Positions 50,495 through 54,502 of a stretch of 64,000 nucleotides of DNA are shown piece by piece (within the stretch, counting starts at the first letter, position 1; each line of letters opens with the position of its first letter). The stretch covers positions 372,001 through 436,000 of the forward strand of contig JACJNX010000061.1 of the NCBI GenBank assembly GCA_014695255.1, written 5' to 3'. Source of the DNA: Cyanobacteria bacterium FACHB-63. Lineage in GTDB: Bacteria > Cyanobacteriota > Cyanobacteriia > Leptolyngbyales > Leptolyngbyaceae. Below the pieces are notes generated by a model. The model was not told the DNA's origin. It saw only the letters and a list, made by a program, of their open reading frames with translations, and did no database searches. The position numbers and the translations under genes are program-made.

Positions 50495-50617
50495 GATTTT
50501 TCCTCACTCTCAGCTTCGATCATAATGGGCGATCGCGATTAGCTAAAGTCGATGCAGTCATTCGGCGTTTCAGCGAATTCACGGTAGATTAAGAACTTGC
50601 CCTCTCACAATGTGTTT

Positions 50618-53600
50618 ATGCACCGAATCGCTGCGACTCCTGGAGGTTGGACTCCTGATCTCGAAGGCGTTGTGTTTATCGAGCAAGCTCCTGCCCCGAT
50701 CGTGGTGATCACGGCAGCAGATACCGATATTCAAACGCTCTCAAGTGCGATTACTCAATTGCCTTCTGGATTTCCCGAAGTGCGGGGCGTGAATTTGCTT
50801 CAGCTTCAGCAGCAATTGACGATCGATACCTATGCAGAAGAGGTGTTAGAAGCAGCAAAGGTGATTGTGCTGCGGATTATTGGGGGGCGATCGTATTGGT
50901 CGTATGGTTTGGAAGTCGTGCGCGAAACGGCGGAGCAATCGGGGGCGACTTTGATTGTGCTGCCAGGGGACGATCGACCGGATTTAGATCTGATGAGCCA
51001 TTCGACGGTTCCGTTTGCTCAGGTTGAGCGAGTTTGGCGCTATTTCAACGAAGGTGGAGTCGAGAACTATCGCAATGCGATCCAGTTTTTAGCGAAGACT
51101 TATTTGGGCGTTGAGGCTGAATTCGCTGATCCACAGGTTGTGCCGCGTGTGGGATTGTATCGAACAGGTGAGCAATGCAGCTATCGATCGGGTAAATGTT
51201 GCAGCGTTCGCAAAGTTGGAATTTTGTTTTATCGCGCTCATTATCTTTCGGGTAATACTGCAGTGATCGATGACCTGTGTGCGGCGTTGTGCGATCGTGA
51301 TTTATGTCCTGTTCCCATTTTTGTTTCTTCGCTGCGTGATCCGGATGTTCAAAGTGAATTGCTGACTTGTTTTCAACCGAAGGATCGACCAAGTATCGAT
51401 ATTCTTCTGAATACGACAAGCTTTTCATTGGGTTCTGCGATTCCGTTTGGAATGACTGCTGCGGCAGATGCGCCAGAGTTGTGGCAATCGTTAGATATTC
51501 CAGTGCTTCAAGTAATTTTAAGCGGTGGCACATTGGAACAATGGCAAGCACAACTGCGGGGACTTTCGCCGCGAGATACTGCAATTAATGTGGCATTGCC
51601 TGAAGTGGATGGACGGATTATTAGTCGAGCAATTTCGTTTAAGGCGGTGCAGGCAAAACATCCGGAGTTGCAAACGGAAGTTGTCACTTATCAGGCGGTG
51701 CGCGATCGGGTCGAATTCGTTGCGGATTTAACTCGAAATTGGGTCGAATTGCGACGGAGTGAGAAGCGCGATCGTAAAGTTGCGCTGATTTTAGCGAATT
51801 ACCCAACTCGCGATGGTCGCCTAGCCAATGGTGTTGGTTTGGATACACCTGCAAGCTGTATTGAAATTCTCAAAGCGCTACAACACGAAGGATATACAGT
51901 TGATAACATTCCTGAGAATGGAGACGAATTAGTTCTGCGATTAACAAAGGGCGTGACAAATGATCCAGAAGCGAGAGAATTACGTAATGTGAATCAATTG
52001 CTACCGTTAGCAGAATATCAAACGTATTTTTCAACATTACCGCTATCGGTTCAAGCGTCGATCGGCGATCGCTGGAATTCAGCCGCAGAATCGTTTGCGA
52101 TTCCTGGAATTCAGCTTGGTAATGTGTTCGTTGGAATTCAACCTGCACGCGGATATGATCTCGATCCGTCTTTGAACTATCACGCTCCAGATTTAGAACC
52201 CACGCATCAATATTTAGCGTTCTACTACTGGGTGAGAGAAACCTTCGGCGCACAAGCGATCGTTCACGTTGGCAAACACGGAAATCTCGAATGGCTTCCG
52301 GGAAAAAGTGTGGCGCTTTCTGAGAATTGTTTTCCTGAAATTGCGATCGGCGCTCTCCCGCATTTTTATCCATTTATCGTCAATGATCCGGGTGAAGGCT
52401 CCCAAGCTAAACGTCGCGCCCAAGCGGTGATTCTCGATCATCTTACGCCACCGATGACTCGCGCAGAGCTTTATGGCGGCTTGCAAAAATTAGAGGCGCT
52501 GATCGATGAATATTACGAAGCGCAAAATCTTGATCCATCCCGGTTAAATGTGGTTCGCGATCGTATTATCGCTCTGGTTGAACAAGATAATCTTAAATCT
52601 GAACTTCCCAGCGATGCAGATTCGATTCTCGATTTGATTACGGATACCGATCGTTATCTCTGCGAATTGAAAGAAGCGCAGATTCGAGATGGATTACATA
52701 TTTTTGGAAAATGTCCAGAAGGGCGGCAGTTGAGAGATTTGATTGTGGCGATCGCACGTCATCCGCAGCCCGATCGAATTGGGCTAACCCGCGCTATTGC
52801 TGAAGAGTGGGGACTTGATTTTGATCCGTTGACTGCTGATCCGGCAGAACTTTTAGACGAGCCGTTTGAAGTGATTCGCTACGATGAGGAATCCGGGAAG
52901 CCCCCTAAATCCCCCAGAATGGGGGACTTTGAGAGCAAAGAGATCTCCGGGCTGCAAGAGAATTTACAACCTTCAGAGTCCCCCACGAGTGGGGGATTTA
53001 GGGGGCAAGAAGCCGACCCAATCGCAGCGCGAAAAATCCGAACCGTCGGAGACGCGATCGCCGCGATCGAAACCGAAGCTGCAAACTTAGTCGATCGCCT
53101 ACTTCAGCAAGACATCCCCCAAAAACGCGCCTACACCGCCGAACTCAACTGGATTCAATCCTTTTTGCTTCCCGCTTTACAAAGCACTCATCAAGAAATC
53201 GACTTCCTTCTACATGGCTTAAATGGTGGCTACGTCCCCGCCGCACCATCGGGCGCACCTACGCGCGGACGACCCGAAGTTTTACCCACCGGACGGAATT
53301 TCTATTCGGTTGATATCCGATCGATTCCCACCGAAAGCGCGTGGCAAGTCGGACGTAAAGCCGCAGAAGCGATCGTCGAACGCTACACCCAAGAAAACGG
53401 AGAATACCCACGCACGATCGGGCTTTCCATCTGGGGAACTTCAACGATGCGAACAGGTGGAGACGATTTAGCGGAAGCCTTAGCATTACTTGGAGTTCAG
53501 CCTGTTTGGGATGGCATTTCTCGCCGCGTGGTTGATTTTGAAATTTTGCCGTTATTGGTGCTTGATCGTCCGCGTGTCGATGTGACATTGAGAATTTCGG

Positions 53601-54502
53601 GATTTTTCCGCGATGCGTTTCCGAATTTGATCGATTTATTTGATCAAGCGGTGAGTGCAGTTGCTCAACTCGATGAACCCCCCGATCAAAATCCCCTAGC
53701 CGCTCAAGCCAAACAAGAATCAGAAGTTTGGCAAACATCCGGCTTGAGTGCGGAACTTGCCGATCGACGATCGCGCCATCGCATTTTCGGCTCAAAACCG
53801 GGTGCATACGGGGCTGGACTTCAGGGATTAATTGAATCCCAAAATTGGGAAACCGATGAAGATCTCGCTCGCGCTTACATTAACTGGAGTAGTTACGCTT
53901 ACAGTAGTTCTGGTGTTGCTCAATCTGCTCCTGAAGCATTCCAGAATCGATTGAACCAGATGCAAATTGTTCTACAAAATCAGGATAACCAGGAACATGA
54001 TCTACTGGATTCCGATGATTATTATCAATTTCAAGGTGGATTAACCGCAGCCATTCGATCGACCCAAGGCAAAAATCCCACGACTTATTTTGGCGATCAT
54101 TCCCTGCCTGAAAATCCGAAGATCCGATCGCTCAAACAACAAATTGCACGAGTCTATCGATCGCGGGTGATCAATCCCAAATGGATTGCAGGCGCAATGC
54201 GACACGGCTATAAAGGCGCCTTTGAACTAGCAGCGACGATCGATTTTCTCTTCGCCTACGATGCCACGGCTCAATGCGTTGAAGACTATATGTTTCAAGG
54301 CGTTGCTGAAGCGTATCTATTCGATTCGACTGTGCAGAACTTCATTCAATCTAAAAATCCTTGGGCACTGCGAGATATGGCAGAACGATTGCTCGAAGCG
54401 AATCAGCGCGGATTCTGGCAGCAAGCCAACGAGAAAACCTTAGAGCAACTAAGAGAGATCGTGCTTGAAGCAGAAGGCGTGATCGAAGGACAAATCTCCT
54501 AA
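50618..54502 (+). CDS. cobN: Cobaltochelatase CobN (with in-frame repeat insertion)
   Basis: Large subunit of the ATP-dependent cobalt chelatase that inserts cobalt into the corrin ring, related to the ChlH/BchH magnesium chelatase subunit. VHVGKHGNLEWLPGKSVALS (20 residues) and FYYWVRETFGAQA are characteristic, and the C terminus has IAGAMRHGYKGAFELA and AYDATAQCVEDYMFQGV. At about 1294 residues it is full length. The frame opens with a TTG seven codons upstream, but the ATG at 50618 gives the usual MHRIAATPGGW. Residues about 761-796 are encoded by a palindromic repeat (52900-53006) that leaves the frame open; they form a Pro/Ser/Gly-rich linker between two conserved regions. CobST-type partners are not in the window. 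Confidence 0.95.
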   Translation: MHRIAATPGGWTPDLEGVVFIEQAPAPIVVITAADTDIQTLSSAITQLPSGFPEVRGVNLLQLQQQLTIDTYAEEVLEAAKVIVLRIIGGRSYWSYGLEVVRETAEQSGATLIVLPGDDRPDLDLMSHSTVPFAQVERVWRYFNEGGVENYRNAIQFLAKTYLGVEAEFADPQVVPRVGLYRTGEQCSYRSGKCCSVRKVGILFYRAHYLSGNTAVIDDLCAALCDRDLCPVPIFVSSLRDPDVQSELLTCFQPKDRPSIDILLNTTSFSLGSAIPFGMTAAADAPELWQSLDIPVLQVILSGGTLEQWQAQLRGLSPRDTAINVALPEVDGRIISRAISFKAVQAKHPELQTEVVTYQAVRDRVEFVADLTRNWVELRRSEKRDRKVALILANYPTRDGRLANGVGLDTPASCIEILKALQHEGYTVDNIPENGDELVLRLTKGVTNDPEARELRNVNQLLPLAEYQTYFSTLPLSVQASIGDRWNSAAESFAIPGIQLGNVFVGIQPARGYDLDPSLNYHAPDLEPTHQYLAFYYWVRETFGAQAIVHVGKHGNLEWLPGKSVALSENCFPEIAIGALPHFYPFIVNDPGEGSQAKRRAQAVILDHLTPPMTRAELYGGLQKLEALIDEYYEAQNLDPSRLNVVRDRIIALVEQDNLKSELPSDADSILDLITDTDRYLCELKEAQIRDGLHIFGKCPEGRQLRDLIVAIARHPQPDRIGLTRAIAEEWGLDFDPLTADPAELLDEPFEVIRYDEESGKPPKSPRMGDFESKEISGLQENLQPSESPTSGGFRGQEADPIAARKIRTVGDAIAAIETEAANLVDRLLQQDIPQKRAYTAELNWIQSFLLPALQSTHQEIDFLLHGLNGGYVPAAPSGAPTRGRPEVLPTGRNFYSVDIRSIPTESAWQVGRKAAEAIVERYTQENGEYPRTIGLSIWGTSTMRTGGDDLAEALALLGVQPVWDGISRRVVDFEILPLLVLDRPRVDVTLRISGFFRDAFPNLIDLFDQAVSAVAQLDEPPDQNPLAAQAKQESEVWQTSGLSAELADRRSRHRIFGSKPGAYGAGLQGLIESQNWETDEDLARAYINWSSYAYSSSGVAQSAPEAFQNRLNQMQIVLQNQDNQEHDLLDSDDYYQFQGGLTAAIRSTQGKNPTTYFGDHSLPENPKIRSLKQQIARVYRSRVINPKWIAGAMRHGYKGAFELAATIDFLFAYDATAQCVEDYMFQGVAEAYLFDSTVQNFIQSKNPWALRDMAERLLEANQRGFWQQANEKTLEQLREIVLEAEGVIEGQIS
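52900..53006. repeat. Palindromic repeat inserted in frame within cobN
   Basis: Arms GCCCCCTAAATCCCCCA (52900-52916) and TGGGGGATTTAGGGGGC (52990-53006) are a perfect 17-bp inverted repeat. Just inside, TGGGGGACTTTGA (52919-52931) and TCAGAGTCCCCCA (about 52974-52985) pair with one mismatch. CCCCCTAAATCCCCC palindromes are dispersed in cyanobacterial spacers. Here the element is translated without a stop. Confidence 0.85.

Follow-up and report, generated by a model that had tools for sequence, protein, structure and literature searches.

Introduction

Rickettsia palindromic elements (RPEs) measure about 105–150 bp and lie both between genes and, fused in frame, within conserved proteins; in-frame fusions through intragenic MITEs are reckoned not unusual in two accounts (PMC2229807, PMC10969869), one of which mentions Anabaena MITEs beside the intragenic ones (PMC10969869). 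Mutations at inverted repeats have been described separately. One study reports that template switching in yeast coding genes leaves arms homogenized and spacers inverted (PMC8604942), and loop inversions in bacterial rRNA genes are called rare in another (PMC8794818).

Here we describe a palindromic repeat in a window of 64,000 nucleotides from Cyanobacteria bacterium FACHB-63 (contig JACJNX010000061.1, positions 372,001 to 436,000); coordinates below are those of the window unless a contig or locus is named, and seven other genomes of the genus are labelled G001 to G007. The repeat is like the RPEs, by description and not by sequence, in standing between genes and in frame inside conserved proteins, and by analogy it would work like them. 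It also compares by description with cyanobacterial MITEs (MITEb and MITEe of Anabaena PCC 7120; Nezha), being short and non-autonomous. Unlike the RPEs, it has a cyanobacterial host, and terminal repeats together with unambiguous target duplications mark its intact copies, whereas one account gives the RPE a 12-bp terminal repeat and a question-marked duplication. Its use of several reading frames, the many cofactor enzymes among its hosts and the loop inversion between orthologues are further features to set against RPEs. Homogenized arms and inverted loops or spacers are shared with template-switch mutations at inverted repeats; the differences are that a putatively translated mobile element is involved here and that 4 of 10 orthologous hairpins are exactly inverted in one species pair. 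No description of this cyanobacterial family was found among the titles and abstract openings of the literature searched.

Results

The gene concerned is cobN (50597..54502, plus strand), an open reading frame of 1301 aa encoding the cobaltochelatase subunit CobN, as identified by the NCBIfam profile TIGR02257 (1671 bits against a cut-off of 822). Since the family profile starts at residue 8, the true start is probably ATG at 50618 rather than TTG at 50597. Inverted-repeat comparison places two arms of 17 nt, 100% complementary and 73 nt apart, at 52900–52916 (GCCCCCTAAATCCCCCA) and 52990–53006 (TGGGGGATTTAGGGGGC), which confirms the perfect 17-bp repeat that the original prediction, made from the sequence alone, had seen in the cobN frame. 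The nested palindrome it reported resolves into two small hairpins, CCCCC-AGAAT-GGGGG at 52911–52925 and CCCCC-ACGAGT-GGGGG at 52980–52995, and the frame does run through the palindrome without a stop. The prediction had counted about 36 added residues. This figure is too low, as the sequence outside the arms is common to other copies and belongs to the same repeat: the in-frame insert extends from 52857 to 53036 on the plus strand (ends approximate, by about 10 nt each way), and the linker has 78 residues here against 21 in G004 (the latter counted by hand on the alignment), a net gain of 57. The arms are bordered by what look like remnants of terminal repeats. The left one, TTCGCTACG at 52857–52899 (compare TTCGCTTCG in intact copies), was recognized by eye against G006 copies and from outer pairing in the fold; the reverse complement of the right one, AAGAAGCCG...CGCAGCGCGAAAAATCC at 53007–53036, resembles by eye the ends of the intact elements that we call family B. 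As a single strand, the 171 nt from 52870 to 53040 fold into one long imperfect hairpin of -80.2 kcal/mol (z -7.5), equalled by 0 of 200 shuffles, with outer base pairs extending well past the 17-bp arms. The palindrome is not a product of chance, because its fold beats all 200 shuffles and its arm pattern recurs across genomes that hold 0–2 matches each to the reversed pattern.

The CobN segment was matched in 57 of the 58 genomes searched, FACHB-63 included. In the two closest relatives, G006 (93%) and G001 (89%), the match runs through the insert, so that assembly error, which the prediction had named as a way in which it could fail, is ruled out as its source. Alignment with related strains, the check proposed at the outset, gave both flanks and no insert in G002, G004, G005 and G007 of the same genus, where an empty linker reads, for example, DPAEPLND-QFRTVGD. 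The cobN fragment of G003 stops before the site and was left out of the tree. In the resulting tree of five CobN proteins, FACHB-63 and G006 form a clade with support 1.0, which G001 joins at 0.77; because of this grouping, the simplest reading is a single insertion in the common ancestor of the three, where the branch making it one event has support of only 0.77. That same value could be cited for another reading, in which CobN possessed the linker residues from early on as a native part, palindromic by chance, and the sister species lost them. The linker spans 19–106 residues in the 92 of 109 CobN sequences in which it could be parsed, and changes in its length are therefore common. This reading is nonetheless scarcely credible, as 34 examined sites of the FACHB-63 genome contain the same sequence and one sister genome has as many as 271 arms, and both core arms (at most 3 substitutions) are confined, among the 92 linkers, to FACHB-63, G006 and G001 (the last represented twice, also as locus L275). 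The proposal that a mobile element landed in a tolerant linker, where it would create new protein sequence, is upheld by the empty sites of four species, the filled sites of two others, the many copies and the 19–106-residue range.

One core arm was also found in the CobN linker of G018, from another genus of the same family, and its palindrome looks independent. Two genomes of other genera have related palindromes in cobN: G018 in this same linker (L012) and G013, by eye, about 35 residues further on (L013). The CobN linker region of other cyanobacteria holds further inverted repeats: Symploca (L341) has one of 23 bp, L287, L296 and L304 have repeats of the CGCAAAG type, and L309 and L343 have others. 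Because such repeats occupy the same region, insertions may land there recurrently. Inverted repeats of at least 9 bases were counted in the linker region of 28 of 91 CobN genes (one being a run of N), against 14 in an upstream control, a scan too unspecific to carry weight by itself.

A DNA search of the FACHB-63 genome gave 60 matches, and the exact 13-bp core occurs 31 times; the reversed core reads identically backwards and is void as a control. The arm pattern (at most 3 mismatches) does have a usable control: it was found 22 times in FACHB-63, 117 in G006, 271 in G003, 61 in G001, 38 in G004, 35 in G007 and 8 each in G002 and G005, compared with the 0–2 reversed matches in each of these eight genomes. 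The highest count, that of G003, comes from a fragmented assembly of 1060 contigs; G003 is perhaps the genome in which the palindrome is most active.

In G006, 44 stretches contain 47 two-armed and 19 one-armed copies. By their ends, the two-armed copies comprise 12 of family B, 18 of family A and 17 mixed or unclear. Family B elements are 192–199 bp long with ends ACGTNAGTTCGACG.., and ACGTNAGTTCGA ends (at most 3 mismatches) flank both sides in these 12 of 47; a 7-bp target duplication is perfect in 7/12 and matches at 6/7 positions in one more. Family A elements (n = 18) are 133–158 bp long with ends TACC(A/G)AAT.. and a 3-bp duplication, TNA, perfect in 14/18. These are the properties of MITEs: terminal inverted repeats, a target duplication of fixed length, size below 200 bp, many copies and no internal transposase gene. 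Since two-armed copies in G006 carry A, B or hybrid ends, mobile ends of two types make use of one hairpin core. An A end is clearly paired with a B end at L121:5732-5816 and L251:1633-1717, with a possible third hybrid at L262:1565-1661, pointing to exchange at the common core; another script-flagged hybrid, L248:3129, was judged a false match. By eye, the cobN copy has flanks similar to type B, and the insert looks like a decayed, old MITE common to three species. At its insertion site only terminal-repeat remnants are readable now, and no target duplication.

A full transposon of family B would have ACGTNAGTTCGAC ends and 7-bp duplications. None was found in FACHB-63, nor by exact pattern in FACHB-63, G004, G006 and G007 (G003 was left out); the search for family-B ends returned MITE copies and a lone terminal repeat (L479) with neither partner nor transposase nearby. 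A search of plasmids gave one match, of 42/141 bases, on a Gloeocapsa plasmid. We also observed, at G000:C157:6905-7004 (L477, L469), a relative of about 100 bp with the same terminal repeats, a 7-bp duplication by eye and a different GC-rich center without the CCCCC core. REPINs are paired inverted hairpins with many copies per genome, and the inverted hairpin pairs seen here at high copy number resemble them; on this reading the element would be a unit of REP/REPIN or IS200/IS605 type, and a Y1 (RAYT/TnpA) transposase would be its mover. We rejected this mover as very improbable: G006 has 117 arms yet no Y1_Tnp match, none of the genus's 23 Y1_Tnp loci has an arm within about 1.5 kb on either side, and intact copies have long terminal repeats and duplications of 7 or 3 bp, which Y1 transposition is not known to produce.

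The prediction had also held that palindromes of this kind are normally intergenic and had suggested looking for the element elsewhere in the genome. It is indeed present elsewhere, and the first statement holds as a tendency and not strictly: of 34 sites surveyed in FACHB-63 (the weak matches C57:3289 and C138:482630 aside), 29 are intergenic by our reading, and five lie inside genes. Eight sites had been flagged within open reading frames of at least 100 aa, and those accepted are in CobN, MenC, MenE (a best match below the families' cut-offs), MenD and CobB. The arm at C13:92760 was rejected because it is upstream of PurQ, whose profile starts at residue 43, as were C117:74026 (112 aa) and C141:105064 (142 aa), in short, apparently low-complexity frames. 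At 19 of the 29 intergenic sites an arm stands at most 70 nt from the 3' end of the neighboring open reading frame (hand count), and the intergenic hairpins may serve to terminate transcription or to form mRNA ends. The peptides encoded by the arms (SPLNPPRVGDFE, KSPxxGGFRG) are present or absent by species in the same linkers, in one-arm or two-arm forms; CobB of G011, from another genus, has the two-arm form.

Arm-bearing open reading frames were flagged in G006 (5, from 62 sites of 117 genome matches), G007 (7, from 31 sites; 35/35 matches covered), G004 (4, from 32 sites; 33/38 covered) and G001 (14, from 56 sites that double-count some overlapping loci; all but four of 61 covered), G003, G002 and G005 being outside the survey. 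Further accepted hosts in these sister species are CbiD, BioF, an EgtB-like enzyme (below cut-off), two GT4 glycosyltransferases that may be one family, a CheA-like kinase, an aldehyde-dehydrogenase-like protein, a HAD-like protein, DUF6816 and an unknown 611-residue protein. The palindrome has thereby entered several unrelated conserved proteins in frame, as an RPE-like coding element does, and its in-gene copies use several reading frames.

Enzymes of cofactor or related small-molecule metabolism make up 8 of 15 host families, versus 1 of 40 arm-free open reading frames picked at random from the retrieved stretches (Fisher p 4e-5), a post hoc category set after the genes had been seen and in which the placing of the EgtB-like enzyme was our choice. 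The single cofactor control is MenE of G007, which adjoins an arm-bearing MenC; one HisC- or CobD-like control was scored as non-cofactor, and several controls have no family match. A stricter, hand-picked set of 10 hosts gives p 7e-7. Before counting, we dropped frames that were short or had the arm in their first 30 residues, where the true start is doubtful (the rejected FACHB-63 frames and those of L248, L355, L362, two of L365, L374, L385, L402, L425 and L444), and kept, despite doubt, the HAD-like frame of L269 and the DUF6816 frame of L389, in which residue 40 is the place of the arm. An apparent preference for cofactor-making enzymes emerges from this count.

Intact elements differ in how readily they could be read through. 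Among family B, all six frames are closed in 11 of 12 (mean number open 0.08 vs 0.30 when shuffled), and 11 of 18 in family A have at least one open (mean 0.67 vs 0.42). In the cobN copy the frame in use is the only open one. Given how rarely family B is open, this copy must have been unusual or have changed after insertion; more generally, insertions surviving in genes would be those already open or later opened.

Divergence within the insert differs from that of the remaining gene. In the comparison with G006, dN is 0.243 and dS 0.286 for the insert (ratio 0.85), and 0.017 and 0.236 for the rest of cobN (0.07); the comparison with G001 gives ratios of 0.50 for the insert and 0.06 for the rest. 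Judged by these rates, the protein sequence of the insert would be almost unconstrained. An adapted part of CobN, for instance a regulatory or binding loop under protein selection, could account for a frame preserved in three species and for the different inverted repeats that some other cyanobacteria have in the same linker region. Such elevated ratios, and the tolerance of multi-residue changes caused by loop inversion, make it improbable.

The stems have changed at 1 of 54 nt, versus 32 of 112 insert nt outside stems and loops (p 1.5e-5, hand counts). G006 has ATTCT in place of the loop AGAAT and ACTCGT in place of ACGAGT, in each case the exact reverse complement, and in CobN inversion replaces RM by IL and TS by TR. 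Among 10 orthologous arms compared between FACHB-63 and G006, 4 loops are exact inversions, 2 are inversions with a 1-nt length change and 4 are unchanged; an eleventh, in MenD, missed by the script, shows by eye an inversion plus one substitution. The flipped protein-coding hairpins of this pair are two in CobN and one in CobB, all exact, and the one in MenD with its further substitution. Elsewhere, the left CobN arm is exactly inverted between G006 and G001, and one of two arms in the EgtB-like gene is exactly inverted between G007 and G004, the other being unchanged. In more distant pairs loops mostly differ in other ways, some being unchanged, and inversions are clear only in the closest pairs. 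Template switching in replication is the most likely origin of flipped loops between fixed stems. Gene conversion from other genomic copies, as opposed to a switch within the hairpin, would also give identical stems and flipped loops, and donors are available because genomes hold many copies in either loop orientation. We consider it unlikely. In cobN of FACHB-63 and G006 both loops are inverted, yet the adjacent spacer and flanks retain a divergence of their own, and in both genomes the left loop has 5 nt and the right one 6 nt, so that conversion would have to end near each loop.

The insert is probably a disordered loop of about 57 residues. The solved CobN structure 7c6o aligns to residues 76–723 and 848–1297, leaving the insert out, and 9uk9 aligns to 9–751 and then from 784, weakly at first. 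In an AlphaFold model of CobN 103–1301 built from 37 sequences (mean pLDDT 64.4; 359/1199 residues below 50), model residues 658–710, that is CobN 760–812, are a single coil with pLDDT below 50. The model agrees weakly with a flexible loop, other stretches being equally low.

Discussion

With a probability of about 0.83, we favor the reading that a family-B element entered the cobN linker ancestrally, is translated, drifts freely and has had its loops flipped by template switching. A non-autonomous, strongly palindromic, transposon-like element would have inserted into the variable linker in the ancestor of FACHB-63, G006 and G001, moved presumably by a transposase. It would have stayed because it was stop-free in the cobN frame, from the outset or later, and its length kept the frame. 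Probably translated as a loop of some 57 residues, the insert would then have drifted almost freely at the protein level as its stems remained near-identical and its loops flipped, likely by template switching. The same family has entered other enzymes as well, including those of cobalamin, phylloquinone and biotin synthesis. More tentatively, and with somewhat less than even odds, the palindrome may enter cofactor enzymes recurrently (cobalamin, phylloquinone, biotin, ergothioneine-like) and serve there as a recoding cassette, its stems held and its loops flipped.

With this locus, free-living photosynthetic bacteria supply a further case in which DNA derived from a transposon would become protein sequence of conserved enzymes, and the empty, half-filled and filled orthologous sites let the steps be followed. 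Palindromes of this kind could serve as fixed test sites at which template switching in protein-coding DNA is made directly observable, as loop orientation can be scored between closely related strains. If the cofactor preference holds, it would be a general pointer to which proteins tolerate new loops, and if the recoding-cassette reading is true, adjacent residues of working enzymes would be swapped in single mutational steps.
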